This document shows, piece after piece, positions 12,946 to 36,863 of a DNA stretch of 64,000 bases. The notes under the pieces are model-generated. The model had not been told where the DNA came from and made no database searches. It saw only the letters and a program-made list of their open reading frames with translations. Source of the DNA: Pseudomonadota bacterium (GTDB lineage: Bacteria; Pseudomonadota; Alphaproteobacteria; Dongiales; Dongiaceae). How positions within the stretch are numbered: the stretch's first letter is position 1; every line of letters begins with the position of its first letter. Where the stretch lies: NCBI GenBank assembly GCA_016183985.1, contig JACPDN010000005.1, forward strand, positions 1-64,000, read 5' to 3'. The position numbers were made by a program, and so were the translations under genes.

Positions 12946-15507
12946 TCAGGTACGCGGCTTCAGGTTTTCCGGGTCATAGAGCGGCTTGTAGCCCACGCCC
13001 GCCACTTCCATCGTGTAGTGTTCGCCGAAATATTCGACGATGAGCTTGCGGCCGACTTGGGCATAGGACCAGGGGAGGTAGGCCAGCGCGATGTTCTTGC
13101 CGATGGTGGGGCCGTAGGCGATCGAGGTGGTGAAGGAGCGGCGGCCGAGGTCGTCGACCAGGGTCTCCTTCGTCTCCGGGTCCATGACCGGCAGGATGCC
13201 GACGGGATAGCGGGCCACACCCTTGCTGTCGATGTTATCGGTCATCACGAGGGTGCAGAGCATCGCCACCTGGTTCGGCAGCGCGCGGTGCCGGATGTTC
13301 GCCGCCTTGCCGCGGAAGTCGGCTTCCTTGACCTTCGGACGCTGCAGGTCGCTTTCGATGAGGTTGTACTCGGTCAAGAGATCGGCGTTCTGCAGGCGCA
13401 GGCTCTTTTCCATGCGGCGGCTGTTGGCGTAGGTCTCGACGCCGAAAGCCATGACGCCGGTCGAGCGCAGGGCGTCCCAGACGGCGAGGCCGTCCTCGTA
13501 CTTCATATGGAGTTCCCAGCCCTGCTCGCCGACATAGGAGATGCGGAAGGCGGTGACGTTCTTGCCGCCGATCTTGATCTGCTTGATGGCGGCGAAGGGG
13601 AAGGCTGCGGGTTCGAGGCCGGCCGGGTCTTCCACGACCTTCTGCAGGGTCACGCGGGCATTGGGGCCCCAGATGCCGATGGTGATGTACTCGGCGGCAA
13701 CGTCGGTCACCTTGACGTTGTAGCCCTTATCCTCGGCCATGCGGCGGATGTAGTGGAAATCGCGCGGGCCGGCATCGGCACCGTCGATGACGCGGATGCG
13801 GTCCGGCATGCGGATGACGGTAAGGTCAGCGCGCACCATGCCCTCGTCATCGAGGAAGTGCGTGTAGATGCCCTTGCCGATATTAGCGTCGCCGCCGATC
13901 TTGGCGGCGCAGATCCATTCCATGAGTTCGACATGGTCCGGACCTTCGACGTCGAACATGTAGAAGTGCGAGAGGTTGACGATACCGCAATCCTCGCTCA
14001 TGGCGAGATGTTCGGCATTGGAGACGCGCCAGAAATGGCGGTTGTCCCACTCGTTCGCACGCACCGGCACGCGGTTGCCGTACTTTTCGAGGAGATGCTC
14101 ATTGGCCTTGTAGCCATGAGCACGTTCCCAGCCGCCGAGTTCCATGAAGTAGCCGCCGAGTTCCTTCTCGCGCTCGTAGAAGGGCGAGCGCTTCACGTTG
14201 CGGCCGGTGTCATAGGGTTCGCGCGGATGGACAGCCGGGTTGTAGATCTTGCGCGCGGCTTCGCCGCAGCGGCCTTCGATGAAGCTCTCTTCCATCATAT
14301 GCGGATAGAAGCGGGCGAAGTCGATCTTGTTGTGATCGATCGGCGTGCGGCCATCGGTCATCCAATCGGCCAAGAGCTTGCCCATGCCGGGGCCGTCCTT
14401 GACCCAGACGCCGACGGCGTACCACAGGCCGCGCACCTTCTGGCTTTCGCCGATAGAGGGGCCGCCATCGGTGGTCACCTGCAGCAGGCCGTTGAAGGAG
14501 CGCTTCTCCTCATAGCCGAGTTCGCCCAGGATCGGCGTCAGTTCGATGGCGCGCTCCAGCGGCTCGAGGATCTGCTCCATGTCGAGATCGCGCTGCGAGG
14601 GGGAGAGGCGGGCTTGTTCCTTTTCAAGAAGATCGCGCGGATGGACCATGCGCGGGTTCTTCTCTTCGTAATAGCCCCACTCGATCATGCCGCCTTCGGC
14701 CGTGGTGGGATCGCCGGTGTCGCGCATATAGGCCGAGTTGCCCTGGTCGCGCAGCAGCGGCCAGCCGATTTCCTTGCCGGTGCCCTTGAACTGGTCATAG
14801 GGCCCGAAGAAGCACAGCGGGTGATCGACCGGCATGACCGGGAGATCCTCGCCCGCCATTTCGGCGATGAGGCGGCCCCAGAGGCCGGCGCTCACCACGA
14901 CGTAATCGGCCATGACGGTGCCGCGGTCGGTGACGACGCCTTTGACGCGGCCGTTCTCGATCACCAGCGACTTCGCCGCGGTATGGGCGAAGACCTGGAG
15001 CTTGCCGGCGGCTTCAGCCTGTTCCACGAGCTTGCCCGCGACGGTCTGCGAGCGCGGGATGACGAGGCCGGCATCCGGATCCCACAGGCCGCCCTGGACC
15101 TTGTCTTCCTCAATGAGCGGGAACTTCTTCTTGATCTCGGCCGGGGTCACAAGCCGCGCGCGGGTGCCGAAGGCCTTGGCAGACGCGACCTTGCGCTTGA
15201 TTTCGTCCATGCGGCCGGTGTCGCCGACGCGGGCGACTTCCAGGCCGCCGACGCGGTCGTAATGGCCGAGCTTGCTGTAGAAATCGATGGAGTAGAGGGA
15301 GGACCAGCAGGACAGGAAGTCGTGGCTGGTCATGTAGCAGAAGTCCGAGGCGTGGGCCGTCGAACCGATATCGGTGGGGACACCGGACTTGTCGATGCCG
15401 ACAATGTCGTCCCAGCCGCGTTCGACCAGGTGATGCGCGATCGACGCGCCGACGATGCCGCCCAAACCGACGATGACGACCTTGGCCTTAGCCGGAAACT
15501 CTGCCAT
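12946..15507 (-). CDS. dimethylglycine/sarcosine dehydrogenase-like FAD oxidoreductase with GcvT domain
   Basis: 853 aa, two-part architecture. Residues 1-~390 form a DAO-type FAD domain: GLGGIVGASIAHHL nucleotide fold, then GSTAHASDF, where His52 aligns with the His that carries covalent FAD in dimethylglycine dehydrogenase. Residues ~430-850 form the GcvT-like tetrahydrofolate domain (SYVGEQGWELHM, GVETYANSRRMEKSLR). The expected reaction is oxidative N-demethylation of dimethylglycine or a related methylamine, giving methylene-tetrahydrofolate. The segment ASDFCYMTSHDFLSCW after the flavin His differs from the usual HAAGL and marks a separate subfamily. It is divergent from an MttB-type methyltransferase across a 365-base gap and ends at a clear terminator. 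Exact substrate unproven. Confidence 0.85.
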   Translation of the reverse strand: MAEFPAKAKVVIVGLGGIVGASIAHHLVERGWDDIVGIDKSGVPTDIGSTAHASDFCYMTSHDFLSCWSSLYSIDFYSKLGHYDRVGGLEVARVGDTGRMDEIKRKVASAKAFGTRARLVTPAEIKKKFPLIEEDKVQGGLWDPDAGLVIPRSQTVAGKLVEQAEAAGKLQVFAHTAAKSLVIENGRVKGVVTDRGTVMADYVVVSAGLWGRLIAEMAGEDLPVMPVDHPLCFFGPYDQFKGTGKEIGWPLLRDQGNSAYMRDTGDPTTAEGGMIEWGYYEEKNPRMVHPRDLLEKEQARLSPSQRDLDMEQILEPLERAIELTPILGELGYEEKRSFNGLLQVTTDGGPSIGESQKVRGLWYAVGVWVKDGPGMGKLLADWMTDGRTPIDHNKIDFARFYPHMMEESFIEGRCGEAARKIYNPAVHPREPYDTGRNVKRSPFYEREKELGGYFMELGGWERAHGYKANEHLLEKYGNRVPVRANEWDNRHFWRVSNAEHLAMSEDCGIVNLSHFYMFDVEGPDHVELMEWICAAKIGGDANIGKGIYTHFLDDEGMVRADLTVIRMPDRIRVIDGADAGPRDFHYIRRMAEDKGYNVKVTDVAAEYITIGIWGPNARVTLQKVVEDPAGLEPAAFPFAAIKQIKIGGKNVTAFRISYVGEQGWELHMKYEDGLAVWDALRSTGVMAFGVETYANSRRMEKSLRLQNADLLTEYNLIESDLQRPKVKEADFRGKAANIRHRALPNQVAMLCTLVMTDNIDSKGVARYPVGILPVMDPETKETLVDDLGRRSFTTSIAYGPTIGKNIALAYLPWSYAQVGRKLIVEYFGEHYTMEVAGVGYKPLYDPENLKPRT

Positions 15508-15872
15508 TTCCCGTGACTCCGAAGTGGTAATTTGCGCGAGACTATATGGCGGCGGTGGGGCGATTGCTGCCTGTTTGCGACATTAGCAAAATGGGCCGCG
15601 ACAAGGGGCCGAGAAAGTGGGCGCTATGCGCCGGTTTTCGCAGGAAATTTGGGTTCTGTAGGCCACCCTGCGGGTGGCTGGCCCAATTGTGACGCAAATA
15701 GGACAAGTCCCGGTATTGCGCCGCAAAATCAACGTTTTCCGGAATGGCGCATTTGGCGCGATCTGGTGAGGCATTGTCGCGCTTTCGCTAGAGCAACAGG
15801 GCGTCCGGTGCCGATATGGGCGACGATTTAGTCATCCCTCTATTAGTTTGATTCACGGGAAAGGCCTTTAAA
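15508..15872. promoter_or_regulatory. Divergent promoter region between dehydrogenase and mttB1
   Basis: 365 bases with no protein-like frame. It contains a perfect 7-bp hairpin GCCACCC-TGC-GGGTGGC at 15662-15678. I see no cobalamin-riboswitch B12 box or other recognisable leader. A regulator shared by both genes is plausible. Confidence 0.5.
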
Positions 15873-17435
15873 ATGTCGACAGCGGAACAGACAGCGGAAG
15901 CCGGCGGCGGCAGGCGTGCGCGCGGCGGCGCCGACGCGCGCCGGGCGCAGCGTCAGAAGCCCAAGCTGGTCCAGAACCCTTATATCGTCCGCAAGATTCC
16001 GCTGGTGACGGTGCTGGATGAAGAAGGCCTTGCCATGATGGAGCGCAATGCCGACACCATCCTGCAGGAAGTCGGCATCGAGTTCCGGGACGAGCCGGAA
16101 GCGCTTGAGCTGTGGAAAAAGGCCGGCGCCGATGTGAAGGGCACCCGCATCCGCTTCCCGCGCGGCCTTGCGCGCTCGATCGTGCAGAAATCGGCACCCA
16201 GCCAATACATCCAGTATGCCCGCAACCCAGAGCGGAACGTGCAGATCGGCGGCAACGCCACGGTCTTCGCCCCGGTCTATGGCCCGCCCTTCGTGCGTGA
16301 CCTCGATAACGGCCGCCGCTATGCGACCATCGCCGACTTCCAGAACTTCGTGAAGCTCGCCTATATGTCGCCCTCGATTCATCATTCGGGTGGCACGGTG
16401 TGCGAGCCGGTCGATCTGCCGGTCAATAAGCGGCATCTCGACATGGTCTACAGCCATATCAAGCTCAGCGATAAGCCGTTCATGGGCTCGGTCACGGCGC
16501 CGGAACGCGCCGAGGACACGGTCGAGATGGCCAAGATCCTGTTCGGCGCCGATTTCGTCGCCAAGAACACGGTGCTGACCAGCCTCATCAACGCGAACTC
16601 GCCGATGGTCTGGGACGGCACCATGCTGGGTGCCATGAAGGTCTATGCCCGCAACAACCAGGCCTGCATCACCACGCCGTTCATTCTGGCGGGTGCCATG
16701 AGCCCGGTGACGGCGGCCGGCACCATCGCCCAGGTTCTGGCCGAGGTTCTGGCCGGCGCGGCGACGGCCCAGCTTTACAATCCCGGCGCACCGGTGATCT
16801 TCGGCGTGTTTGCCTCCTCGATCTCGATGCAGTCCGGTGCGCCGACTTTCGGTACGCCGGAGCCGACGCTGGTGTCGCTGGCTTGCGCCCAGCTCGCCCG
16901 TCGCCTCGGCATCCCGTTCCGCACCGGCGGCTCGCTCTGCGGTTCCAAGATCGCCGATGCCCAGGCGGCCTATGAGAGCGCCCAGACGCTGCTGCCGACC
17001 CTGCAGGCGGGCACCAATTTCGTGCTGCATGGCGCCGGTTGGCTCGAAGGCGGTCTCTCGGCCGGCTACGAGAAGTTCATCATGGATGCCGACCAGCTCG
17101 GCATGATGCAGACGCTGGCCAAGGGCATTGATCTGTCGGAGAACGGCCAGGCGCTCGACGCCATCCGCGAAGTGGGGCCGGGCAGCCATTTCCTGGGCTG
17201 CGCCCATACCCAGGCCAATTTCGAGACGGCCTTCTATCGCTCCAACATTGCCGATAACAACTCGTTCGAGCAGTGGGAAGCGGAAGGCGCCCAGGATGCC
17301 GCGCAGCGCGCCAACAAGATCTTCAAGCGCATGCTGGGCGATTACGAGGCCCCGGCCCTCGATCCGGCCGTCGACGAGGCGCTGAAGGAATTCATTGCCA
17401 AGAAAAAGGCCGCGACTCCGGACAGCAACGTCTAA
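15873..17435 (+). CDS. MttB-family (trimethylamine/glycine-betaine type) methyltransferase, paralogue 1
   Basis: 520 aa, full-length member of the trimethylamine methyltransferase MttB superfamily, with a basic Arg/Gly-rich ~35-residue lead. Family landmarks include SGAPTFGTPEP, FRTGGSLCGSKIADAQAAYES, LHGAGWLEGGL and REVGPGSHFLGCAHT. There is no in-frame amber codon, so it is the non-pyrrolysine type typified by glycine betaine methyltransferase MtgB. Such enzymes move a methyl group from a quaternary amine to a corrinoid protein; no MtgC/MttC-like corrinoid protein is in this window. Divergent from the dehydrogenase and followed by a strong terminator, so it is a single-gene unit. Its true substrate is unknown. 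Confidence 0.88.
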   Translation: MSTAEQTAEAGGGRRARGGADARRAQRQKPKLVQNPYIVRKIPLVTVLDEEGLAMMERNADTILQEVGIEFRDEPEALELWKKAGADVKGTRIRFPRGLARSIVQKSAPSQYIQYARNPERNVQIGGNATVFAPVYGPPFVRDLDNGRRYATIADFQNFVKLAYMSPSIHHSGGTVCEPVDLPVNKRHLDMVYSHIKLSDKPFMGSVTAPERAEDTVEMAKILFGADFVAKNTVLTSLINANSPMVWDGTMLGAMKVYARNNQACITTPFILAGAMSPVTAAGTIAQVLAEVLAGAATAQLYNPGAPVIFGVFASSISMQSGAPTFGTPEPTLVSLACAQLARRLGIPFRTGGSLCGSKIADAQAAYESAQTLLPTLQAGTNFVLHGAGWLEGGLSAGYEKFIMDADQLGMMQTLAKGIDLSENGQALDAIREVGPGSHFLGCAHTQANFETAFYRSNIADNNSFEQWEAEGAQDAAQRANKIFKRMLGDYEAPALDPAVDEALKEFIAKKKAATPDSNV

Positions 17436-17455
17436 ACCGGCCCATATGAACCAGC

Positions 17456-17485
17456 GAAAAGGCGCCCTTGCGGCGCCTTTTTGTT
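17456..17485 (+). terminator. Rho-independent terminator after mttB1
   Basis: Stem AAAAGGCGCC / GGCGCCTTTTT with a CTTGC loop, followed by TTGTTTTG, 20 bases after the mttB1 stop. Confidence 0.9.
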
Positions 17486-17546
17486 TTGCGCCGGCCGCAA
17501 GCACATGTAGAGATTGGGCCAGACTATCGGGGGAACGGCCATCAGC

Positions 17547-19861: not shown

Positions 19862-19863
19862 GG

Positions 19864-20430: not shown

Positions 20431-20555
20431 GAAGGGTTCGGATCCTATTGTTTTGATGCGTTGCGGCATGGTATGCGAGGCAGTTCATTCTGCCTAGCCC
20501 CCGGCGAGACGCGCGGGGAAATGAGGCCGAATTCGCGGAAATCAAGGGCCAGGAT

Positions 20556-25087: not shown

Positions 25088-25116
25088 TAGAGCAACTGAT
25101 TCGTAATCAGTAGGTC
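25088..25116 (+). other. tRNA-Thr(CGU) gene fragment, possible attachment-site remnant
   Basis: Reading the plus strand, bases fall exactly on tRNA positions: the 3' half of the D arm (TAGAGC), A26, anticodon stem ACTGA, seven-base loop TTCGTAA with U33 and anticodon CGT, matching stem TCAGT, then variable-loop AGGTC. The stem pairs perfectly. Nothing before it forms an acceptor or 5' D strand, and no T-arm GTTCGA follows, so this is not a functional tRNA. It overlaps the soxG stop codon by two bases. Anticodon arms are frequent targets of tyrosine integrases. Confidence 0.6.
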
Positions 25117-25726
25117 AGTGAGCGCGAATGGCAAATTTGAAATCGCGGCCCACCAGCCAGAACCATTGCCACAGGTAGTCGGCAAAGCTCTTCAGGATAT
25201 AGATATCGTAGCTGGGATTGTCCGAAACCTGGTCGAGCAGGATGTTGGCCTTGGTGAGGCCGGTCTGCGCGCATTGTCCCGGACCGAAGACACGCGGATG
25301 CAGATCGAGGCTGCAGCCACGGGCCAGCACGTCACGGGCGGAGGGGCCGGAAACGTTGATCACTGTGCGGCTCTCGGACACGTCGATCACGGCGGCATGT
25401 TGGCCGTTGAAGGCCTGGCGCAGATCGTCCGCCAGCTTGGCCGAATCCACATTGGCGCTGACGACCCACCATTCGGTGGGGCCGAGCCACAGGATGCGGA
25501 AATCGCCAGCCGCAGCTGTGGTGTTCGGTGTCACCGGCAGCTCGGCACCGGTGACTGACCGAACCGCCGCCTTGAAGGCATCGCCGCCATCGCCGCGGAT
25601 GTTGACGATGGTGCGATGGGCGGCCTCACCGATGAGGAGATCTGCACCGGCGACGTCACCTTTGGCGGCAGCGGCAGTGAGGCCGAAGTGCTGCAATGCG
25701 CTGCGGCGGGCATAAGCGTTAGCCAT
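25115..25726 (-). CDS. soxG: sarcosine oxidase gamma subunit
   Basis: 203 aa, small GcvT-like subunit of heterotetrameric sarcosine oxidase. WLGPTEWWVVSA and ESRTVINVSGPSARDVLARGCSLDLHP are the diagnostic segments. Starts at 25726, overlapping the end of soxA by eight bases. Last gene of the soxBDAG operon; its stop codon lies against a tRNA-like fragment and a terminator follows. Confidence 0.93.
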   Translation of the reverse strand: MANAYARRSALQHFGLTAAAAKGDVAGADLLIGEAAHRTIVNIRGDGGDAFKAAVRSVTGAELPVTPNTTAAAGDFRILWLGPTEWWVVSANVDSAKLADDLRQAFNGQHAAVIDVSESRTVINVSGPSARDVLARGCSLDLHPRVFGPGQCAQTGLTKANILLDQVSDNPSYDIYILKSFADYLWQWFWLVGRDFKFAIRAH

Positions 25727-28700
25727 TGGCGGGGGCTCCATCCTCAAGGAAGGTCGGTTTGCTGATCTTGGCGGCGACGACCTTGCCTTCATATGGCAGG
25801 TAGACGGTCTGACCCATGCGGTTGCGGCCGTCCTTGATCACCGCCATGGCGATCGAACGACCCGCATTCGGGCTCCAATAGCTGGAGGTCACATGGCCGA
25901 TCATGGTCATGGGCGGCTTGTCTTTGACATGCTCGACGACCTGGGCACCTTCCGGCAGCACTTCCGTCGGGTTTTCGGTGAGGAGACCGACGAGATGCTT
26001 GCGGTCGGTCCGCTTCGTGTCCGAGCGCAGATGCGAGCGGCGGCCGATGAAATCCGGCTTCGCCTTGCCGATGATCCATTCGAAGCCGAGATCCTGCGGC
26101 GTCATCGTGCCGTCGGTTTCCTGGCCGACGATCACGAAGCCCTTCTCGGCGCGGAGCACGTGCATCGCTTCGGTGCCGTAGGGTGTGATGTTGAACTCCT
26201 CACCGGCATCCATCAATGCGCGCCAGACCTGCAGGGCATAGCTCGGCGGGATGTTGAGCTCGAAGGAGAGGGCGCCGGTGAAGCTGATGCGGAAGATGCG
26301 CGTCTTGACGCCCGCAACCTTGCAATCGCGCCAGGTCATGAACGGGAAGGCTTCTTCCGAAATGTCGATGCCTTCGACGACCTTCTCCAGCACCTTGCGG
26401 GCGTTGGGGCCGTTCAAGGCAATCACCGCCCATTGCTCGGTAACGCTGGTGAAATAGACCTGCTTGTCCGGCCATTCGCACTGATGCCATTCCTCAAGCC
26501 AGGAAAGCACGCGCGGTGCGCCGCCGGTCGTGGTGGTCATGTGGAAATGATTTTCCGAGATGCGGCTGGTGACACCGTCATCGAAGACCATGCCATCTTC
26601 ACCGCACATGAAGCCGTAGCGGCACTTGCCGGGCTCCAGCTTGGTCCAGGCATTGGTATAGACCATGTTGAGAAACCAGGCCGCATCCGGGCCCTGGATG
26701 TCGATCTTGCCGAGTGTCGAGGCGTCGAAGATGCCGACGGAATCGCGCGTGGCTTTCACCTCGCGATTGACCGCGTCATGCATGCTCTCGCCGGACTTCG
26801 GATAGTACCAGGCGCGGTGCCACTGGCCGACGCACTCAAACGGTGCGCCGTGGTCGGTGTGCCAGGAATGCAGCGCCGTCTTGCGGATCGGGTCCAGGTA
26901 GTCGCCCTTGTCCGGACCAGCGAACACGCCGAAGGTCACTGGCGTGTAAGGCGGGCGGAAGGTCGTGGTGCCGACCTCGGGGATCGAGACGTTCTTCAAG
27001 CCTGCCATGATGGCGAGCGCGTTGACGTTGCTGGTCTTGCCCTGATCGGTCGCCATGCCCATCGTGGTATAGCGCTTCAAATGCTCGACCGAGAGATAGC
27101 CTTCGCGATGTGCGAGCTTCACGTCACCGGCGGTGACATCGTTCTGATAGTCGACGAAATGCTTGCCGCCCTGGCCGACCGGCACGTTGGAGGGCACGAT
27201 CCAGACCGAACGCAGCGGCTGGCTCTCGGGTTCAGCTTCGGCACTCGGCGCATTGCCGGTGACGTTGCTGAAGCCAAACTTCGCCGCGGCTTCCGCACCG
27301 GCCTGATGGCCTTCCTTCAGCGCCGCATCGAGACCGAAGACGCCGCGTGCGGAGCTGATCGAGCGGTTGTTCTGGCCGGGCATGATCGGGCCCGGGATGA
27401 AGGCCTGGATGCCGTCATCCCAGACGACCTTGGCGCGGGTCTGCGAATGGAGATGCACGGTCGGCTGCCAGCCGCCCGAGCTTAGCACCGTGTCGCAATA
27501 GATGTGCCGGGCGGAACCGACGACGCCGGTGGCATCGCTCGTGAGGCTCTGCACCTCGACCTCGCGCACTTGCTTATTGCCCTTCACCTGGGTGATCGCC
27601 GAATTGTCGATGATCTCGATGCCTTTGGCGCGGGCTGCCTGGGGCAGGCCGCCGGTGGGATTGGCGCGCAGATCGACGACGGCCGCGACCGAGACGCCGG
27701 CGGCGGTGAGGTCGAGGGCCGTCTGATAGGCGGTATCATTGTTGGTCATGATGACCACGCGCTGGCCCGGCGTTGTGCCATAGCGATTGACATAGATGCG
27801 CGCGGCCGAAGCAAGCATGCAGCCCGGGCGGTCGTTGTCGCTATAGACCAGCGGGCGCTCGATGGCGCCGGTCGCCAGGATCACTTCCTTGGCGCGGATG
27901 CGCCACAGGCGCTGGCGCGGACCCGTCGCGGTCGGGCCGATATGGTCGGTGAGGCGCTCGACCAGGCTCAGCATGTTGGCGTCGAGATAGGCAAAAGCGG
28001 TCGTGCGGGTCAGCACGCGGACTTCCGGCATGCCGGCGAGTTCCGCCTTGGCAGCTTCGACCCACTCATTGACCGGCTTGCCGTCGATGGTGCGATCGCG
28101 CTCGGAGAGCAGCGAGCCGCCCAGTTCCGATTGCTCGTCGGCCAGCACCACGCGGGCGCCGGCGCGGCCGGCGGCGAGGGCCGCAGCGAGACCGGCGGGA
28201 CCGCCACCGACCACCATCACGTCGCAATGACCATAGACCTTGTCATAGCGATCGGGGTCGGTTTCGGTCGAACCCGTGCCGAGACCGGCGGCGCGACGGA
28301 TGAATTTTTCGTAGAACAGCCAACCATCCTTCGGCCATTTGAAGGTCTTGTAATAGAAGCCCGACGGAATGAAGCGGCTCATGACCGAGTTGACCGCGCC
28401 GATGTCGAAATCGAGGCTCGGCCAGCGGTTCTGGCTCTGTGTGACAAGGCCGTCATAGAGCTCGACCTGCGGCGCGCGCGTGTTCGGCTCGCGATAGGCG
28501 CCGGTGCCGATTTCAACGAGCGCGTTCGGCTCTTCCGGGCCAGCGGTCACGATGCCGCGCGGGCGATGATATTTGAACGACCGGCCGACCAGCGTCACGC
28601 CATTGGCGAGAAGAGCGGAGGCCAGGTTGTCGCCCTGATAGCCGTAATAGGTCTTGCCGTCGAAGCTGAAGCGGACCGGCTTCGAACGGTCGATGCGGCC

Positions 28701-28733
28701 ACCGGTGGCGACGCGGTTCTTCTGGGCGCTCAT
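25719..28733 (-). CDS. soxA: sarcosine oxidase alpha subunit
   Basis: 1004 aa, the large subunit of the cytoplasmic heterotetrameric enzyme that oxidises sarcosine to glycine, methylene-tetrahydrofolate and H2O2. Residues ~15-95: ferredoxin-like domain (FDGKTYYGYQGDNLASALLA). Residues ~170-460: NAD-binding Rossmann domain (CDVMVVGGGPAGLAAALAAGRAG), with ILATGAIERP. Residues ~600-1000: GcvT-type folate-binding domain (TLGKIDIQGPDA, FNITPYGTEAMHVLRAEKG). Lies between soxD (one base away) and soxG (overlap). Confidence 0.96.
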   Translation of the reverse strand: MSAQKNRVATGGRIDRSKPVRFSFDGKTYYGYQGDNLASALLANGVTLVGRSFKYHRPRGIVTAGPEEPNALVEIGTGAYREPNTRAPQVELYDGLVTQSQNRWPSLDFDIGAVNSVMSRFIPSGFYYKTFKWPKDGWLFYEKFIRRAAGLGTGSTETDPDRYDKVYGHCDVMVVGGGPAGLAAALAAGRAGARVVLADEQSELGGSLLSERDRTIDGKPVNEWVEAAKAELAGMPEVRVLTRTTAFAYLDANMLSLVERLTDHIGPTATGPRQRLWRIRAKEVILATGAIERPLVYSDNDRPGCMLASAARIYVNRYGTTPGQRVVIMTNNDTAYQTALDLTAAGVSVAAVVDLRANPTGGLPQAARAKGIEIIDNSAITQVKGNKQVREVEVQSLTSDATGVVGSARHIYCDTVLSSGGWQPTVHLHSQTRAKVVWDDGIQAFIPGPIMPGQNNRSISSARGVFGLDAALKEGHQAGAEAAAKFGFSNVTGNAPSAEAEPESQPLRSVWIVPSNVPVGQGGKHFVDYQNDVTAGDVKLAHREGYLSVEHLKRYTTMGMATDQGKTSNVNALAIMAGLKNVSIPEVGTTTFRPPYTPVTFGVFAGPDKGDYLDPIRKTALHSWHTDHGAPFECVGQWHRAWYYPKSGESMHDAVNREVKATRDSVGIFDASTLGKIDIQGPDAAWFLNMVYTNAWTKLEPGKCRYGFMCGEDGMVFDDGVTSRISENHFHMTTTTGGAPRVLSWLEEWHQCEWPDKQVYFTSVTEQWAVIALNGPNARKVLEKVVEGIDISEEAFPFMTWRDCKVAGVKTRIFRISFTGALSFELNIPPSYALQVWRALMDAGEEFNITPYGTEAMHVLRAEKGFVIVGQETDGTMTPQDLGFEWIIGKAKPDFIGRRSHLRSDTKRTDRKHLVGLLTENPTEVLPEGAQVVEHVKDKPPMTMIGHVTSSYWSPNAGRSIAMAVIKDGRNRMGQTVYLPYEGKVVAAKISKPTFLEDGAPANG

Positions 28734-28734: not shown

Positions 28735-29025
28735 TTACTTCTGCTCCAGCTTCGGGGCCGGTTCGCCCATCTTGTAGACCTTGACGATTTCGTGCGTCAC
28801 CGTGTGGCGCGCAACGTTGAACCACTGGCGGCAGCCGCGGCTGTGCACCCAGCGCTCGAAATGAACGCCCTTCGGGTTCTTGCGCATGAACAGGTAATCG
28901 GCCCATTCGGCATCTGACATGGTTTGCTGCTGTTCCAGCGTCGGGCGCGCGATATGCGCCTCGTGGCCGTAAGCGAACTCATGCTCGTCGCGGGGACCGC
29001 AATAGGGGCAGGAGATGAGAAGCAT
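28735..29025 (-). CDS. soxD: sarcosine oxidase delta subunit
   Basis: 96 aa zinc-binding subunit. Starts at 29025 with MLLISCPYCGPRDEHEF, which carries the first two zinc ligands (CPYC), followed by the HxxRGCRQWFN motif near residue 61. Full length for SoxD. Positioned 22 bases after soxB. Confidence 0.95.
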   Translation of the reverse strand: MLLISCPYCGPRDEHEFAYGHEAHIARPTLEQQQTMSDAEWADYLFMRKNPKGVHFERWVHSRGCRQWFNVARHTVTHEIVKVYKMGEPAPKLEQK

Positions 29026-29047: not shown

Positions 29048-30301
29048 TTAGTGCGCGACGCCGGCGGCGCCGTGCTCGTCGATGAGGTAGCCGGTCGTAA
29101 AACGCTCCAGCGCGAAGGGCTGGGCCAATTGATGCGGCTCGCCACGCGCGATGGTGTGCGCAAAGACGTTGCCGGAGCCCGGTGTCGCCTTGAAGCCGCC
29201 CGTGCCCCAACCGCAATTGATGAACAGGTTCTCGACCGGCGTCTTGCCGATGATGGGCGAGGCGTCGGGGCAGGTATCCACGATGCCGCCCCACTGACGC
29301 AGCATGCGCAGGCGACCGAAGCACGGGAAGAGGTCGGTCAGCGCGTTGAGCTGGTTCTCGATGATGAAGGGCGAGCCGACCTGGGCGTAGGAGGTGTAGG
29401 CGTCGATACCGGCGCCCAGCACCAATTCGCCCTTGTCCGACTGGCTCACATAGACGTGGACCTGCGGCGACATGACGACGGTGTTGAGGATCGGCTTGAT
29501 CGGTTCGGAAACGAGGGCCTGCAGCGGATGGCTCTCGACCGGCAGGCGGAAGCCCGCAAGGCCCGCCATCACGCCGGAATGGCCGGCGACGACGATGCCG
29601 ACCTTCTTGCCGCCGATGAAGCCGCGCGTCGTCTCGACGCCCTTCACAACGCCGCCCACGATCTTGAAGCCGGTCACTTCGGTGTTCTGCAGAATGTCGA
29701 CACCGCGCTCATCGGCCTTGCGGGCAAAGCCCCAGGCGACGGCATCGTGGCGGGCGACACCGCCGCGACGCTGCAAGCTTGCACCCATGATCGGATAGCG
29801 CGCCTTGGATGAGCAATCGAGGATCGGCACCATTTCCTTGATCTGCTCGGGCGTCAGGATCTCGCTGTCGATGCCGTTCAATTGAATGGCGTAGACGCGC
29901 CGGCGCAGGGCCTGCATGTCATGTTGCGTATGCGCGAGGTTCATCAGGCCGCGCTGGCTGAACATGACGTTGTAGTTGAGATCCTGGCTGAGGCCCTCGA
30001 ACAGCTTCAATGAGTGTTCGTAGAGATGAGCCGATTCATCCCACAGATAGTTCGACCGCACGATGGTCGTGTTGCGGCCGGTATTGCCGCCACCGATCCA
30101 ACCCTTTTCCACGACCGCGACATTGGTGATGCCGTGTTCCTTGGCGAGGTAGTAGGCCGTCGCTAGGCCATGGCCGCCGCCGCCGATGATGATGACGTCG
30201 TATTCCGGCTTCGGCGCCGGGCTGCGCCAGGCCTCCTGCCAGCCCTGGTGGTAGCTGAGGGCGTTCCGGACCAGGCTGAAAATCGAATAGTTCTGCTTCA
30301 T
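29048..30301 (-). CDS. soxB: sarcosine oxidase beta subunit
   Basis: 417 aa from the ATG at 30301. DAO-type flavoprotein subunit that holds the sarcosine-oxidising FAD and covalent FMN. FAD fold at residues 35-55 ([18 protein letters not shown]). RHDAVAW contains His185, which corresponds to the His that binds FMN covalently in the family. C-terminal [15 protein letters not shown] is the usual FAD-binding end. First gene of soxBDAG; the divergent GlxA-type gene upstream is the likely activator. Confidence 0.96.
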
Positions 30302-30686
30302 AGCATTCCCGATTTGGGGGTTTCCCGGACAAGCTGTCGCGCGATTTGGGTATGGTGCGTGTTTTACGGTTGCGGATGATGCCAAGGCAATGGCGGCGAA
30401 TCCCCCGACCCCGCGCCATCTAATGTCGCGTTAACGCCGTGGGTCAAGTTGGCACAGCGCATAGGCTTTTGAGTTTTTTGCCCTCATAGCCATGGTGTTA
30501 GTGGGGATGCAGCTATTATTCGCGCGTCATTACAAGAAATTGGCGCAATGGCGGAAAACGGCCGATTCCTGACCGATGGGTCCAATTAATGTCGCGTGTG
30601 CGCCATTTTGCCTGTGGACGACATGTCGGAAATGAGATATTTCCCAGCCCTCATTTTTCGCTGAACTTACTCGATGGGGGTTGGCC
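30302..30686. promoter_or_regulatory. soxB / glxA-type regulator divergent promoter region
   Basis: 385 bases with no protein-like frame. A 10-bp palindrome CGACATGTCG is at 30619-30628 and AT-rich runs lie near 30525-30600. GbdR-type proteins bind promoters of betaine catabolic genes, so an operator here is expected, but I cannot assign one. Confidence 0.5.
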
Positions 30687-31691
30687 GTGTTCGGTGATTT
30701 GCCAGTGAAGCTGCCGCAGGAGATTGCGTTTCTGCTGGTGCCCAATTTTTCGATGATCGCCTTCACGTCCGCCGTCGAGCCATTGCGTCTCGCCAATCGC
30801 GTGGCGGGGAAGGAACTCTACCGCTGGCACCTATACTCGTCCGACGGCAAGGCGGTTGCCGCTTCGAACAGCATTCCGCTGACGCCGGAAGGTTCGGTCG
30901 AACAGATCCTTAATTACGAGACCATCGTGCTGTGCAGCGGCGTCGACGGTCATCTCTACGAAGACAAGAACGTATTTGCGCATTTGCGCCGCGCTGAGCG
31001 GCAGGGTGCCGATATCGGGGCACTTTGCACCGGCGCCCATATCCTTGCCAAAGCCAACATGCTCAATGGCTATCGCTGCACCATCCACTGGGAGAATCTG
31101 GCGAGCTTTGCGGAGAATTTCCCGGATATCGAAACCACGTCGGAACTCTTTGAGATCGACCGCAACCGCTTCACCTGTTCAGGCGGCACGGCGGCGCTCG
31201 ACATGATGCTCAATCTCATCTCGCAGCAGCACGGACATGAGCTCGCCGCGGCGGTCTCGGAGCAGTTCATCCACGAGCGTATCCGCGATCGCCACGACCA
31301 CCAGCGCATGGCCCTGACCGCGCGCCTCGGCGTGCGGCATCCCAAGCTCATCCAGGTCATCCAGCAGATGGAGGCCAATCTGGAAGAGCCGCTGGATCGG
31401 GCGGAACTTGCCGATGCGGCGGGGCTGTCCAGCCGCCAGATGGAGCGCTTGTTTGCGAAGTATCTGCATCGCTCGCCTGCACGTTATTACGTGGAACTGC
31501 GCCTGCACCGCGCGCGTCTCTTGTTGCTGCAGACCAACATGTCGGTCATCGACGTGGCACTGGCCTGCGGCTTCGTCTCGGCGTCGCATTTCTCCAAGTG
31601 CTATCGCGACTTCTTCGGCAAGACGCCGCGTCGCGAACGGGCAACGCCCAGTGCCAATCCACGCATGCAGATCGGCAGCGTGGCCGCTTAA
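30687..31691 (+). CDS. GlxA/GbdR-type AraC transcriptional regulator
   Basis: 334 aa. N-terminal DJ-1/PfpI-like sensor domain (residues ~10-175; elbow GALCTGAHILAKA) and C-terminal AraC DNA-binding domain (~215-320; ELADAAGLSSRQMERLFAKYLH, then VALACGFVSASHFSKCYRDFFG). The GTG at 30687 is favoured, with a GGGGG site six bases upstream; a TTG at 30681 is also in frame. In Pseudomonas, GbdR of this architecture senses betaine and dimethylglycine and switches on sarcosine oxidase genes. The divergent position next to soxB makes the same role likely. Confidence 0.88.
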   Translation: MFGDLPVKLPQEIAFLLVPNFSMIAFTSAVEPLRLANRVAGKELYRWHLYSSDGKAVAASNSIPLTPEGSVEQILNYETIVLCSGVDGHLYEDKNVFAHLRRAERQGADIGALCTGAHILAKANMLNGYRCTIHWENLASFAENFPDIETTSELFEIDRNRFTCSGGTAALDMMLNLISQQHGHELAAAVSEQFIHERIRDRHDHQRMALTARLGVRHPKLIQVIQQMEANLEEPLDRAELADAAGLSSRQMERLFAKYLHRSPARYYVELRLHRARLLLLQTNMSVIDVALACGFVSASHFSKCYRDFFGKTPRRERATPSANPRMQIGSVAA

Positions 31692-31984: not shown

Positions 31985-32160
31985 ATCGAACCTCTTGGCA
32001 AGCTCTCGATTCGGGCGATGCCGCCGTCTCGATGCTGCCAATCTAGGCTTAACGGGACCGGGCCGTCTGTGATCCGGCCCACAGCTTGGATCCGGACTTA
32101 AGTAGTGGAAATGTCTAATAAAAGAGCGTCAATGTGACGCGCCTCACCGCGTTAACCGGC

Positions 32161-32436
32161 TCAGTTGCCGAGGCGGAGGCTCTTTTTCCAGTATTCGAGT
32201 GCGCAAGCCACTGGCACAGGCAGGTTCCGGTACTTGTCGCGCATCGCCTGTTCGGCCAGCGCGCCGCCGGAGAGGTTCTGAAGGACATTGCTGCCAAGAT
32301 CGTTGCCGCCGGTTTCCAGCGCGATGGTCTTCTGTTCCAGGGCGTCGCAGGGGTTGCTGGCGGATTCGAGCAATTGCGGCGCCCATAGGAAGGCAACCGC
32401 CAGCAACACAAGCGGGATCAGCAGGCGTCGGATCAT
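32161..32436 (-). CDS. Small putative periplasmic protein, 91 aa
   Basis: Begins with a Sec-type signal (IRRLLIPLVLLAVAFLW), then a ~65-residue mature part with two cysteines (NPCDALE, PVACALEYWKKS) that could form a disulfide. The gene starts 5 bases after the HD-domain gene on the same strand, so it is probably its operon partner. Similar small proteins are common in alphaproteobacteria; function unknown. Confidence 0.7.
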   Translation of the reverse strand: MIRRLLIPLVLLAVAFLWAPQLLESASNPCDALEQKTIALETGGNDLGSNVLQNLSGGALAEQAMRDKYRNLPVPVACALEYWKKSLRLGN

Positions 32437-32440
32437 CGCT

Positions 32441-33013
32441 CTACGCCGCCCGGACGCGGCCGAAGGGCGGCTTGGCGAAGAGACGCTGCACCATCGGTTC
32501 GAACGCCTCTATCGGTGCCGTGTCGTAAGTGGGGTCGAAGCTGTTCTGATCGTAGTTCTGGCAGAAGAGGGCGGTCTTCTCGAACATCGGGTGGCCGCGA
32601 TAGCGCTCACGCTCGAAGCGGTCGAGGCCGATATGGTGGAAGAAGTAATAGCCCTGGAAGATGCCGTGGTGCTTCACCAGCCAGTAATTCTCCTCCGAGA
32701 CATAGGGCCGCAGGATCGACGCGGCGAGCTCGGAGTGGTTTTCCGGCGCCAGCAGATCGCCGATGTCGTGGAGCAGGGCGCAGACGATCATTTCTTCATC
32801 GGTGCCGTCCCGCATCGCCCGCGTCGCTGATTGCAGGGAATGCTGATAGCGGTCGATTTTATAGCCCATCTTGTCGCCCTCAAGCAGCTTGAGATTGCCA
32901 AGGACATTGTCGGCGAGCTCGTGGTTGAGCTTCTGATAGACGCGATCGAGAAACTGGTATTCCTCGTAGGTGCCGTCTTCCATGCGGATGAAGTTGACGG
33001 ATTCAGAGTCCAT
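32441..33013 (-). CDS. HD-domain protein resembling PhnZ/TmpB-type diiron oxygenases
   Basis: 190 aa, single HD domain. Candidate metal ligands in order: His58 (RYQHSLQSA), His82-Asp83 (LLHDIGD), His93 (ENHSELA), His115 (VKHHGIF) and Asp155 (NYDQNSF). This six-ligand set, with the extra His inserted between the HD pair and the later His, and the HSLQSA segment, resembles the mixed-valence diiron oxygenases PhnZ and TmpB rather than simple phosphohydrolases. TmpB releases glycine betaine from a hydroxylated trimethylaminoethylphosphonate, which would fit the nearby betaine genes. No TmpA-like hydroxylase is visible. A plain HD phosphohydrolase remains possible. Divergent from the CblC-like gene with 89 bases between. 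Confidence 0.72.
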   Translation of the reverse strand: MDSESVNFIRMEDGTYEEYQFLDRVYQKLNHELADNVLGNLKLLEGDKMGYKIDRYQHSLQSATRAMRDGTDEEMIVCALLHDIGDLLAPENHSELAASILRPYVSEENYWLVKHHGIFQGYYFFHHIGLDRFERERYRGHPMFEKTALFCQNYDQNSFDPTYDTAPIEAFEPMVQRLFAKPPFGRVRAA

Positions 33014-33102
33014 GGCGGCGCATCCTCGACATCATTTTGCCAAAATCGCGTGCAGTTTAAGGGGCAGAAACATTCCGGTCCAGGTCTCACCCAGGTTTAT
33101 CG

Positions 33103-33780
33103 ATGCTCGCCGCGCTTCATGATGCTCTTGCGCCCCTCGGAATGGCGTTGCGCGGTGGCTTTGTGCCCGAAAGCGGCGACACGGTGCCGCTTTTGGGCGA
33201 TGGCAGTGCAACGCGTGCTGTGCTTCTCATCGGCAATATCGGTGGTGCGATGTGGCCGGCCTTTGCCGATTCAGACGCGCGGGCACACGACGCCGAGCAC
33301 CCGCTCGACAACTGGACGCGTGACGCGCTGGATCCCGTCGCCGCGCGTTTCGCCGCCAAAGTGGTCTATCCGTCGGATGGGCCGCCTTATCATCCATTCC
33401 AGCGCTGGGCGGCGCGGGCCGAGCCGGTCCACGTCTCGCCGCTCAGGATCTTCATTCACCCAACCTATGGGCTGTGGCACGCCTATCGCGCGGCCTTTCT
33501 CCTGGCCGACGACCCTGGGTTGCCGGTGCCGATGCAGGCCCGATCGCCTTGCATCAGCTGCGCTGCACGGCCGTGTCTTTCGACCTGCCCGGTGGGCGCC
33601 TTCAGCGAAACCGGCTTCGACGATCGGACCTGCGCCCGTCATGTCGACAGCCCGGCGGGGACGGAGTGCCGTGAACGCGGCTGCCTCGCCCGGCGCGCCT
33701 GCCCCGTTGGGAGAGAGTATTCCTATCCGCCGGCGCAGATGGCATTCCATATGGAGGCGTTCCTGGCACTCCGCCGCTGA
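33103..33780 (+). CDS. CblC-like corrinoid-binding domain fused to Fe-S cluster domain (QueG/RdhA-related)
   Basis: 225 aa. Residues 1-~140 match the MMACHC/CblC pattern: an LxxxxAPLGMALR opening, and IHPTYGLWHAYRAAFLL (118-134), the counterpart of the family's IHP..G.W...R..LL cobalamin-binding segment. Residues 150-201 have two cysteine groups (C150-x2-C153-x4-C158-x3-C162-P, then C177, C189, C193, C200-P) suiting two [4Fe-4S] clusters, as in QueG and reductive dehalogenases. Automatic annotation would probably call this a ferredoxin. Shorter than QueG, and it lacks QueG's HEAT-like C-terminus. Likely role: corrinoid handling or low-potential reduction of a corrinoid; this is inference. Confidence 0.65.
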   Translation: MLAALHDALAPLGMALRGGFVPESGDTVPLLGDGSATRAVLLIGNIGGAMWPAFADSDARAHDAEHPLDNWTRDALDPVAARFAAKVVYPSDGPPYHPFQRWAARAEPVHVSPLRIFIHPTYGLWHAYRAAFLLADDPGLPVPMQARSPCISCAARPCLSTCPVGAFSETGFDDRTCARHVDSPAGTECRERGCLARRACPVGREYSYPPAQMAFHMEAFLALRR

Positions 33781-33875
33781 TCCGCCCAGCTTCCCTTGAA
33801 CCGAAACCCCGTCCGATGCGACCGACGGGCCCGGCCCAACAACACGACAATAGCTTCAGTTATCAGACCAAGATC

Positions 33876-33989
33876 ATGAAACACCTTCCTGGACTTAAAG
33901 CATTCGGCGGCCTCGCAGTGGCAGCCTTCCTGATGATCGGCGGCGCCTTGCTTGCGGGCTTCCTGGCCGGTTCCGGCTTCGGCGGCTAA
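33876..33989 (+). CDS. Possible 37-aa hydrophobic peptide
   Basis: ATG at 33876, TAA at 33987. The peptide is one hydrophobic, Gly/Ala-rich segment with a short basic lead (MKHLPGLKAFGG) and a Gly-rich end, suited to a single membrane helix. The ribosome site is weak (AGACCAAGATC). Lies between the CblC-like gene and the three-repeat protein. Codon use is consistent with the genome, but shortness keeps confidence low. Confidence 0.35.
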   Translation: MKHLPGLKAFGGLAVAAFLMIGGALLAGFLAGSGFGG

Positions 33990-34105
33990 GGCCCCCGACA
34001 AAGCGCGTCCGCCTCACTGGCGCGGTTGGAGAAAAATGTCCCTTTGCAAGGGCTTGTGACATCTTAACGATGTCACCCGCATAGTCTGCCGTCGGGCTTG
34101 TCCCT

Positions 34106-35110
34106 ATGGGAGTCGATGCGGTATCTACTACTTCTCCAAAAATAGCTCCAACTGCTGGAGGGCGGGCTTTGCGCTCACTCATTCTTTCGCTAGCGGCATT
34201 TTGCGCTGGCCTTGCTGTCGTTGTCGGTCTCACCATCTCGGCGGCACAAGCAGCCGAAGTCACCTTGCTCGCGGTTGAAAAGGCCGGCGGCGCGGAAGTG
34301 AAGGGCGACATCGCCTGGTCCGTGGTGAAGGTGAACAAGGAAACCGGCAAGCCCGAAGCAAAGGCGGCTGCCAGCGGCACCGGCGCACGCTTCGTCGCTA
34401 AGCTCGATCCCGGCCAATACCTGGTCACTGCCAAACTCGGCAAAATCGAGAGCAGCCAGGCAATCCTCATCGGCAAGTCCGCGACCACGCGTTCGCTGGT
34501 GCTCGCCGATCCGACAAAAGCGACCGCTTCGAAACAGCCTGAGGCTGGCCCGCCGGCCCAACTTTCCATCAATCTGAAACTCAGCAAGGGCAAGGCGCCG
34601 ATCAAGGAGCCGGTCCTGTGGGAAGTCTATAAGTATCAGAAGGGCGCCACCGAAAACGGTGAGAAGCTGACCGAGCAGAGGGCCGCAGTCGGCCAGTTCA
34701 CCTTGCCCGGCGGCTCCTATGTCGTGCGCGCACATTTCAAGGATGCCAAGGCCGATCTGGTTATTCCGATCCAGGCCGGCCAGTCGCTGAAATACACACT
34801 CAACCTTTATGCCGGTTATGTGAAGCTCGCGGCGCTGAAGCCCAAGAAGCAGAAGACCCAGGCCGAGGCGCTTAACTGGCAGATCCTGCGCCAGCGCCCG
34901 AATGCGCCCGGTGTTTATGAGCTGGTCGCCAGCAGCGCCAAGCCCGACCCCACCATGATGCTACGGGAAGGCCGCTATCTCGCGGTGGCGCGTCTGGGTG
35001 CAAAGCTCTGGGGCAGCGAGCAGATCGTGATCACGGCCGGCCAGACAACCAGCAAGAAGATCAACCTCAAGGAAGGCGTCGGCGCCCCCGAGGTTGCCCA
35101 GGCGAACTAA
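34106..35110 (+). CDS. Secreted protein with three tandem beta-type repeats, 334 aa
   Basis: A ~20-residue polar lead is followed by a hydrophobic signal region ending in AAQAAEV (cleavage near residue 50). The mature part has three ~85-residue repeats, each with a Trp followed by a Gly-[YS]-Y-x-V or similar ending: IAWSVVKV...LDPGQYLVTAKL, VLWEVYKY...LPGGSYVVRAHF, and LNWQILRQ...LREGRYLAVARL. Each closes with an xIxIxxGQ/K-xxxxxLxL strand. This pattern suits small beta-sandwich (carboxypeptidase-regulatory-like) domains. Lys-rich between repeats. Envelope or periplasmic role likely; no known family named. Confidence 0.75.
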   Translation: MGVDAVSTTSPKIAPTAGGRALRSLILSLAAFCAGLAVVVGLTISAAQAAEVTLLAVEKAGGAEVKGDIAWSVVKVNKETGKPEAKAAASGTGARFVAKLDPGQYLVTAKLGKIESSQAILIGKSATTRSLVLADPTKATASKQPEAGPPAQLSINLKLSKGKAPIKEPVLWEVYKYQKGATENGEKLTEQRAAVGQFTLPGGSYVVRAHFKDAKADLVIPIQAGQSLKYTLNLYAGYVKLAALKPKKQKTQAEALNWQILRQRPNAPGVYELVASSAKPDPTMMLREGRYLAVARLGAKLWGSEQIVITAGQTTSKKINLKEGVGAPEVAQAN

Positions 35111-35135
35111 CGCTTAGGCGAACTATCGCTTACTT

Positions 35136-35164
35136 GTCATGCCCCGGCGCGGCCTGGGCATGAC
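35136..35164. repeat. GTCATG...CATGAC intergenic palindrome
   Basis: GTCATGCCCCGG and CCTGGGCATGAC flank a short CGCGG centre. Same ends as the copies at 2409 and 40854. Lies between the three-repeat gene and mttB2. Confidence 0.7.
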
Positions 35165-35324
35165 AATAGAGAAGGAGTAAGCGGCGCCCCGCCAGTCGGT
35201 TGGGCGCCGTTTCCGTTTGAGCCCGATGACAAGCCGGAATGCACCGTATGAGACTTTCAGGTGCCCGGAATTCGCCTGCCTTTGCTAGTTTGGTGACAGA
35301 CGTTAACACCCAACGAGGCTTATC

Positions 35325-36863
35325 ATGTCACGGGAAGCAGCGCGCGAGGCGCGCGGTCGCCGCAACACCAGGCAGGCGAAAGGGCTGAAGCAGCTCCCCT
35401 GGCGCAACCATCGCAACAATTACGATCCGGTCCGGGTCTTGAGTGATGACCAGATCGAAGCGATCCATCAAACGTCGCTCCGTATCCTCTCGGAGCTCGG
35501 CATCGAGTTTCTGGAAGAGAATGCGCTCCGCATCCTCAAGGAGAACGGGGCCGAGGTGAAAGCCGGCTCTAATCTGGTGCGCTTCGATCCTGCCTTGATC
35601 ATGGAAAAGATCAAGACGGTGCCGAAGACTTTCACGCTGCATGCGCGCAACCCAGCGCATAATCTCTCCTTCGGTGGCAACCATATCAATTTCGGCTCCG
35701 TTGCCTCGGCACCCAACGTCTCCGATCTCGACAAGGGCCGCCGCCCGGGCAATTTCGAGGATTATTGCAATCTCGTGCGGCTCGCACAGTCACTCAATGC
35801 CGTGCAGTTCCTGGGCGGCTATCCGGTCGAGCCCGCCGATTTGCCGCCGAGTACCCGTCATCTCGATGCGCTCTATGTGGCGGCAACACTCACCGACAAA
35901 GTCTGGCATCCGTATTCGCTTGGCAATGAGCGCATCGAGGATGCGATCGAGTTGATGGCGCTTGCGCGCGGTATCTCGAAAGAGCAACTGGCCAAGGAGC
36001 CGAGTGTCTTCTCGATCATCAACAGCAACTCGCCTTTGCGTCTCGATACGCCTATGCTGCAAGGCTTGCAGGCGATGGCGAAAGCGGGGCAGCCGATCGT
36101 CCTCACGCCGTTCACGCTCTCTGGTGCCATGGCACCGGCGACCATTGCCGGTGCCCTCGCACAGGCCAATGCCGAAGCGCTGGCTGGCCTTGCGTTCACG
36201 CAGATGGTCAATCCGGGTGTGCCTTGCGTCTATGGCGGTTTCACCTCGAATGTCGACATGAAGACTGGGGCACCAGCCTTCGGCACGCCGGAATATACCC
36301 GTGCCGCCATGGCCGGCGGCCAGCTTGCGCGCAAATACGGTTTCCCCTACCGCTCCAGCAATGCCTGCGCTGCCAATGCGGTCGACGCGCAGGCGGCCTA
36401 TGAATCCCAGATGTCGTTGTGGGGCGCCGTGATGGGCCATGCCAATCTCATCCTGCACGGTGCCGGGTGGATGGAGGGTGGCCTGGTTGCGTCGTTCGAG
36501 AAGATGGTCATCGACGCCGAGATGATCCAGGGTATGAGCGAGTTCATGATGCCGCTCGACGTCTCGGAGGACGCGCTCGGCTTTGAAGCCATGCGCGAGG
36601 TCGGACCGGGCGGCCATTTCTTTGGTGCCGCGCATACGCTGGCGCGCTACGAGACCGCGTTCTATTCGCCGCTCGTTTCCGATTGGCGCAATTACGAGAC
36701 CTGGCGCCTCGCCGGGGCACAGGATGCGGCACAGCGCGCCAACACCTTGTGGAAGCAGGCCCTGGCCGAGTTCGAAGCACCGGCAATCGATCCCGCGATC
36801 GACGATGCCATGAAGGACTTCATCGGCCGCCGCAAGGCTGAGGGTGGCGTGAAGCAGATCTGA
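35325..36863 (+). CDS. MttB-family methyltransferase, paralogue 2
   Basis: 512 aa, same superfamily and layout as the gene at 15873: FTSNVDMKTGAPAFGTPEYTRA, NAVDAQAAYESQMSLWG, ILHGAGWMEGGLVASFEKM and REVGPGGHFFGAAHT. No in-frame amber codon, so a non-pyrrolysine member. It shares only family-level similarity with paralogue 1 in many segments, so the two probably act on different amines or are old duplicates. A basic lead (REAARGRRNTRQAKG-like) again precedes the domain. It stands alone; a palindromic repeat lies upstream and a hairpin without U-run (36851-36873) marks the 3' end. No corrinoid protein gene adjoins it. Confidence 0.88.
   Translation: MSREAAREARGRRNTRQAKGLKQLPWRNHRNNYDPVRVLSDDQIEAIHQTSLRILSELGIEFLEENALRILKENGAEVKAGSNLVRFDPALIMEKIKTVPKTFTLHARNPAHNLSFGGNHINFGSVASAPNVSDLDKGRRPGNFEDYCNLVRLAQSLNAVQFLGGYPVEPADLPPSTRHLDALYVAATLTDKVWHPYSLGNERIEDAIELMALARGISKEQLAKEPSVFSIINSNSPLRLDTPMLQGLQAMAKAGQPIVLTPFTLSGAMAPATIAGALAQANAEALAGLAFTQMVNPGVPCVYGGFTSNVDMKTGAPAFGTPEYTRAAMAGGQLARKYGFPYRSSNACAANAVDAQAAYESQMSLWGAVMGHANLILHGAGWMEGGLVASFEKMVIDAEMIQGMSEFMMPLDVSEDALGFEAMREVGPGGHFFGAAHTLARYETAFYSPLVSDWRNYETWRLAGAQDAAQRANTLWKQALAEFEAPAIDPAIDDAMKDFIGRRKAEGGVKQI

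Follow-up and report, generated by a model that had tools for sequence, protein, structure and literature searches.

Genes for a probable dispersed MtgBCDE-type demethylation system in a Dongia genome: six MttB paralogues and one MtgC-like protein

Demethylation genes at the locus

The window analysed here, 64,000 nucleotides long, is contig C11:1-64000 of a 4.65-Mb genome of 16 contigs that is listed as 100% complete. Judged by MttB1, one of two MttB-family proteins encoded in it, its closest named relative is Dongia mobilis (92% identity). A first-pass annotation had placed two non-pyrrolysine MttB proteins (MttB1 and MttB2), a DMGDH-like flavoprotein and soxBDAG between positions 12946 and 36863, and our domain and family matches agree with it (Table 1). 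From gene content and by analogy with a described system, we propose, with a probability of about 0.85, that the locus is part of an aerobic MtgBCDE system whose genes are dispersed and in which six MttB proteins would share one MtgC.

Table 1 Features of the window and the corrinoid protein gene on contig C13. Positions without a contig name refer to the window.
Feature	Position	Strand	Evidence
MtgE, homocysteine methyltransferase module of split methionine synthase (bmt of the first-pass annotation)	2531-3577	-	PF02574 218.9 bits; NF005718 507.3 bits (cut-off 338)
DMGDH-like flavoprotein, divergent from mttB1	12946-15507	-	DAO, FAO_M, GCV_T and GCV_T_C domains
MttB1, likely MtgB (glycine betaine:corrinoid methyltransferase)	15873-17435	+	PF06253 783.7 bits; 45.5% identity to DhMtgB (2QNE)
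soxG	25115-25726	-	PF04268
soxA	25719-28733	-	TIGR01372 1501.3 bits (cut-off 1164)
soxD	28735-29025	-	PF04267
soxB	29048-30301	-	TIGR01373 724.7 bits in a 445-amino-acid frame (cut-off 529.45)
GbdR-like AraC-family regulator	30681-31691	+	NF052371 428.8 bits
HD-domain protein, remotely PhnZ/TmpB-like	32441-33013	-	PF01966 25.8 bits
Stand-alone CblC-fold protein with two putative [4Fe-4S] clusters	33103-33780	+	225 amino acids; eight invariant cysteines
Protein without Pfam match	34106-35110	+	Lies between the Fe-S gene and mttB2 also in G037 and G165
MttB2, MttB paralogue without assigned substrate	35325-36863	+	PF06253 671.2 bits
Fatty-acid-desaturase-family protein	44329-45282	-	PF00487; conserved MttB2 neighbour
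GFA-domain protein (glutathione-dependent formaldehyde-activating family)	45429-46286	+	PF04828; conserved MttB2 neighbour
PhnD-like (Phosphonate-bd) protein	46317-47120	+	PF12974; conserved MttB2 neighbour
MtgC-like stand-alone corrinoid protein	C13:641645-642349		234 amino acids; PF02607 and PF02310

The whole genome encodes six MttB paralogues, which are 26-57% identical in pairwise comparison. None of the six reading frames contains an internal stop codon, and MttB1 and MttB2 scored 280.3 and 306.2 bits against the pyrrolysine-MttB model TIGR02369, far below its cut-off of 525; both are therefore non-pyrrolysine proteins. Consistently, the position equivalent to pyrrolysine is Leu in MttB1 and MttB3, Met in MttB6 and a gap in MttB2, MttB4 and MttB5. 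The missing in-frame amber codon, the low scores and the lack of a match at this site together rule out the pyrrolysine type.

MttB1 resembles MtgB of Desulfitobacterium hafniense (DhMtgB, PDB 2QNE), with which it also shares the Leu at the pyrrolysine-equivalent site. It differs from DhMtgB in its aerobic context and in having no MtgC gene next to it. Docking predicted Tyr94, Asn199, Arg309 and His345 of DhMtgB as betaine residues (PMC6855144; this paper, PMC12478193 and PMC5764234 are cited here for the portions available to us). All four are retained in MttB1, as they are in MttB3; three are found in MttB2, which lacks Tyr94, and in MttB5, two in MttB4 and none in MttB6. These sequence features suggest that the substrate of MttB1 is most likely a quaternary amine, glycine betaine foremost.

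The other paralogues lie among further flavoprotein genes. MttB3 (L012:9523-16112) and MttB5 (L013:10503-14107) each adjoin a flavoprotein of the old yellow enzyme (OYE) type, with Oxidored_FMN and pyridine-nucleotide domains, an arrangement that looks as though a methyl-amine dehydrogenase might act on the MttB product. A DMGDH-like protein is also encoded near MttB3, and two adjoin MttB6 (L015:4201-11055). MttB6 is the most divergent paralogue, 26-29% identical to the others; by score it is nearest to pyrrolysine MttB, yet it has Met at the pyrrolysine site.

A corrinoid protein and its partners on other contigs

MttB enzymes had been described in the first-pass annotation as lacking a corrinoid partner. 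Within the window this holds, as genome-wide searches with PF02607 and PF02310 placed no corrinoid protein anywhere on contig C11. For the genome it does not hold, because an MtgC gene is present on another contig. PF02607 identified a single protein, encoded on C13, and PF02310 identified the same protein as well as two long frames (740 and 691 amino acids). The C13 protein stands alone and was scored best by the MtgC, MtbC and related corrinoid models (201.3, 183.2 and 174 bits). It is 73-84% identical to 14 proteins encoded near MttB1 orthologues, and the motif D-x-H-x-x-G is invariant in the 15 MtgC sequences, out of 43, that were aligned.

The genes expected to work with such a carrier are also present. 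A gene row on contig C2 encodes RamA/RACo, MtgD, MetF2, DUF5981, a Virulence_fact-domain protein and DUF1638. The bmt gene noted earlier at about 9 kb from the span corresponds to mtgE, located in the window 9.4 kb from the DMGDH-like gene. No Meth_synt_2 match, and hence no MetE, was detected in the genome, whereas 10 of 14 control genomes gave a match. MetH appears to be absent as well, judged from the counts of one PF02607 and two PF00809 matches and with no direct MetH model run: MetH would add a match to each family, and the matches seen are accounted for by MtgC, MtgD and a further PF00809 protein (on C4). MtgC, MtgD and MtgE would thus form the only methionine synthase detected by sequence, aside from a second PF02574 protein on C1. 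The latter, of the homocysteine S-methyltransferase family, has 299 amino acids (L023:7613-8512) and no mtg gene beside it.

This gene content matches the dual methionine synthase/glycine betaine methyltransferase MtgBCDE of Ruegeria pomeroyi (Mausz et al. 2025, PMC12478193). MtgB, MtgC, MtgD, MtgE, RamA, DUF1638 and metF2 are all present, MetH and MetE were not found, and there are several MttB paralogues, six here and up to seven per genome there. Absence of MetH and MetE is typical of the MtgBCDE system, though not universal. In contrast to R. pomeroyi, the pieces in this genome, of the genus Dongia, are spread over three contigs with MtgC by itself, and the CblC-fold Fe-S gene and the partners of MttB2 are not described in the available portion of that paper. 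The split methionine synthase of Phaeobacter inhibens, with its RamA-like and DUF1638 proteins (Price et al. 2018, PMC5764234), makes methionine and reactivates B12 with the same modules; that work, in the portion available, concerns methionine synthesis, and MttB is not part of it.

By sequence, the function class is likely aerobic corrinoid-dependent N-demethylation, and the genes, though scattered, belong to a system of a kind already described. The first-pass annotation had held that an aerobic corrinoid-dependent route would be new if its carrier were non-standard or encoded elsewhere; this is not supported, since genetic work on R. pomeroyi published in 2025 demonstrated the same arrangement (PMC12478193). 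As far as gene content goes, a canonical corrinoid system encoded elsewhere explains both MttB proteins of the window, the outcome that had been named as speaking against a novel route. The apparent puzzle of an orphan MttB is dissolved, and it illustrates that for scattered genes a whole-genome check can find the carrier.

Linkage of MttB with MtgC across genomes

We compared the neighbourhoods of the best 80 of at least 575 loci with MttB1 orthologues. A partner was counted for any tblastn match with E <= 1e-10 over at least a quarter of the query, and the counts take in a few weak matches (L045, L054). MtgC was encoded within 10 kb in 46/80 loci, and the other partners recovered were DUF1638 (44/80), MtgD (42/80), RamA (38/80), MtgE (38/80) and the CblC-fold protein (35/80). 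An MtgC more than 65% identical was found in 45 of the 80 loci; in 25 its gene is divergent from that of MttB1 with a gap of less than 600 bp. One of the loci, a single contig of a metagenome-assembled genome (L045), encodes MttB1 and an MtgC that is 76% identical and, beside these, proteins weakly matching MtgE, MtgD and MtgC (34-36%).

Co-occurrence was analysed in 190 genomes of the same class. MttB occurred in 40 of them and RACo in 41, with 38 encoding the two together; the pair of MttB genomes that lack RACo are 68% and 74% complete. MtgC was detected in 40 genomes at E <= 1e-40, and the 35 with E <= 1e-100 were counted. Of the five matches left out, three come from genomes that lack MttB but have RACo and a weaker corrinoid protein (G081, G125 and G187), and two, in G002 and G026, lie in frames of 639 and 1172 amino acids.

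These distributions bear on the first-pass suggestion that the carrier is either non-standard or encoded elsewhere. The second part stands with MtgC on C13, and the first found no support. According to it, the MttB proteins would act without MtgC and use the CblC-fold Fe-S protein or free cobalamin, which would fit a window devoid of a corrinoid gene and an Fe-S protein with a B12-enzyme fold encoded about 1.5 kb from mttB2. However, the genome does contain an MtgC gene, and every one of the 35 counted MtgC genomes also has MttB, leaving 0/190 with MtgC alone. Moreover, 12 of the 40 MttB genomes have no CblC-fold protein, so it is not the general carrier. We regard a non-standard carrier as highly improbable.

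A second alternative is that MtgC serves only the split methionine synthase. Betaine would then be demethylated by MtgE, as a direct betaine-homocysteine methyltransferase, or by an oxygenase (e.g. of the GbcAB type), and the MttB proteins would act on other compounds or be little used. The NCBIfam name of the MtgE family, betaine--homocysteine S-methyltransferase, points in this direction. The co-localisation of MttB1 with MtgC argues otherwise, as do the R. pomeroyi mtgC and mtgD mutants, which lose growth on glycine betaine even with methionine (PMC12478193); the Sinorhizobium meliloti type of MtgE is furthermore argued, in the available portion of the same paper, to be without betaine-binding residues. 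We consider this alternative unlikely.

Several observations nevertheless weigh against an MtgBCDE system in which the MttB proteins share one MtgC. The C13 protein scored below every curated cut-off of the corrinoid models (370, 350 and 215.3 bits), and no MttB gene is found near mtgC in this genome. Phe353 of DhMtgB, a residue also discussed in PMC6855144, is replaced by Gly in MttB1-5 and by Leu in MttB6. The regulator described as GbdR-like does match the AraC family, but at 428.8 bits it stays under the equivalog cut-off of 480. At 32/80 MttB1 loci, none of MtgC, MtgD, RamA and DUF1638 was found in the stretch examined; both named Dongia loci are among these, along with several short contigs. 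Five of the 40 MttB genomes have no MtgC match even at E <= 1e-40. Each of the five is a draft in at least 120 contigs, yet completeness is given as 93% for G176 and 95% for G077, and contamination as no more than 2% for both. Finally, the co-occurrence of MttB with MtgC and RACo was computed without correction for kinship, which the p-values given below likewise ignore.

Proposed pathway

In R. pomeroyi, MtgC is methylated by MtgB, and MtgD then hands the methyl group on to tetrahydrofolate; in the opposite direction, MtgD and MtgC feed MtgE (PMC12478193). For the Dongia genome we infer corresponding reactions, substrates and a sharing of MtgC from the gene content, neighbourhoods and co-occurrence observed. 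MttB1, as MtgB, would demethylate a quaternary amine, probably glycine betaine, and methylate the cob(I)alamin carried by the MtgC encoded on C13. MtgD would move this methyl group on to tetrahydrofolate for oxidation via MetF2, and in reverse MtgD and MtgC would supply a methyl group to MtgE to yield methionine. RamA and DUF1638 are predicted to reactivate the oxidised corrinoid. Because DMGDH-like and Sox proteins are present, dimethylglycine and sarcosine would then be demethylated by them, possibly under control of the GbdR-like regulator. MttB2 and the four further paralogues may use the same MtgC for other quaternary amines. Under such a scheme, Dongia would join the bacteria with an MtgBCDE pattern, its six MttB paralogues being served by a single corrinoid hub. 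A weaker proposal, taken up below, is that the CblC-fold Fe-S protein acts as an accessory corrinoid-processing factor.

A CblC-fold Fe-S protein near mtg genes

With the carrier found, the CblC-fold protein is the chief remaining lead. It gave no Pfam match at E <= 0.001. In an alignment of 32 of 35 usable relatives (L032 and L070 were not included), eight cysteines are invariant. The AlphaFold2 model is of high confidence (mean predicted local distance difference test score (pLDDT) 94.0; predicted template modelling score (pTM) 0.89). Foldseek returned MMACHC as the best matches (E 1.7e-6), and 22/22 structural matches in the PDB at E <= 0.001 were QueG or MMACHC/CblC of human or worm origin, followed by reductive dehalogenases. 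The first-pass description as a CblC-like Fe-S protein is thus borne out by the model. Superposition on CblC and QueG was moderate, with template modelling (TM) scores of about 0.45-0.57 by query length and root mean square deviations of 6-9 Å, and the match accordingly counts as remote.

Sequence comparisons were consistent with a remote relationship. The protein contains the QueG-like ferredoxin cysteine pattern, and a profile search of PDB sequences gave E 0.017 for QueG and >0.3 for MMACHC. The MMACHC family PF16690 matched 18/32 relatives weakly (best E 0.0016) and did not match the window's own sequence at E <= 1. The QueG model TIGR00276 gave weak matches in 17/32 relatives (best E 2e-4) that did not reach its cut-off, and a NapG ferredoxin model matched 18/32 relatives as weakly as QueG. 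The window protein therefore shares a fold with CblC/MMACHC and QueG but reaches no curated family, and at 225 amino acids it is shorter than QueG (437). No counterpart of the eight invariant cysteines is known in MMACHC.

The gene recurs beside mtg genes in several layouts. It is co-directional with, and less than 1 kb downstream of, the MttB1 orthologue in 27/80 loci, lies near MtgC and DUF1638 in G125 and adjoins RamA-MtgD in G088. In the 190 genomes, 49 had a match at E <= 0.001 and the 39 with E <= 1.3e-16 were counted; the ten left out have E values of 4.8e-8 to 9.7e-4, and seven of them lie in frames of QueG length (434-495 amino acids). CblC-fold protein and RACo occur together in 28 genomes (odds ratio 27, p 4.6e-15).

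On the model and these neighbourhoods, the protein may be an accessory corrinoid-processing factor. More specifically, and tentatively, it could be an unrecognised reactivation or loading factor with two [4Fe-4S] clusters that acts beside RamA and DUF1638 and keeps MtgC usable in air, although we hold this specific role to be somewhat doubtful. If true, the CblC and ferredoxin modules found in QueG and in reductive dehalogenases would here serve as a free chaperone or reductase rather than an enzyme, and this small Pfam-less family would be a candidate corrinoid-handling factor in aerobic bacteria. We give even odds to the protein having nothing to do with Mtg and lying nearby by chance, as a general protein of cobalamin handling or redox chemistry. 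Such a reading would account for the 11/39 carriers without RACo, whose loci revealed no common neighbours, and for the 13/41 RACo genomes without the CblC-fold protein; the co-occurrence with RACo and the repeated adjacency to mtg genes tell against it. The same mismatches rule out a strict part in every Mtg system.

Among open-licence publications, no title or abstract was found that deals with a CblC-fold Fe-S protein standing alone; such a negative does not prove absence. The main text of PMC12478193 contains none of the terms ferredoxin, 4Fe-4S, iron-sulfur and CblC. In the available portion of PMC5764234, 4Fe-4S is mentioned solely for a serine-pathway oxidase, and ferredoxin for a homocysteine pathway and a domain of the RamA-like protein.

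Other genes in the window

The DMGDH-like gene accompanies MttB1 in 7/80 loci. The HD-domain gene was found in 0/80 and is kept beside the Fe-S gene in G037 and G165; its membership in the demethylation system is uncertain. The protein has an HD domain, and the likeness to PhnZ/TmpB named in the first-pass annotation is only remote (39.3 bits against a cut-off of 214.6, and 34.6 against 300). Lys and Tyr occupy the positions aligning with Tyr24 and Glu27 of PhnZ, which we take to be its gate residues. With scores under the cut-offs and these residues replaced, assignment as a known phosphonate oxygenase is not supported.

The second lead is the conserved neighbourhood of MttB2 (44329-47120), which falls outside the span 12946-36863. 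It was compared in 14 loci, with L145 used for L132 (same genome, further downstream). Desaturase or PhnD-like genes accompany MttB2 orthologues in 7/14; desaturase, GFA and PhnD-like genes recur with MttB2, but no pathway was assigned to them. The desaturase gene is about 40 bp from mttB2 in G037, about 6.4 kb in G165 and about 7.4 kb in the window. The intervening stretch of the window (36876-44300) contains genes for a BTAD/TPR regulator, an aldo-keto reductase, a 2Fe-2S protein and a molybdopterin-binding oxidoreductase, the aldo-keto reductase and 2Fe-2S labels being our own from the sequence; the 6.4-kb stretch of G165 has no match to the BTAD gene. An aromatic-amino-acid-lyase gene adjoins mtgC in this genome (L011:10702-12228), and another lies near the MttB2 orthologue in L133 (217-1638), in a blast cluster that also has members in L138 and L139.

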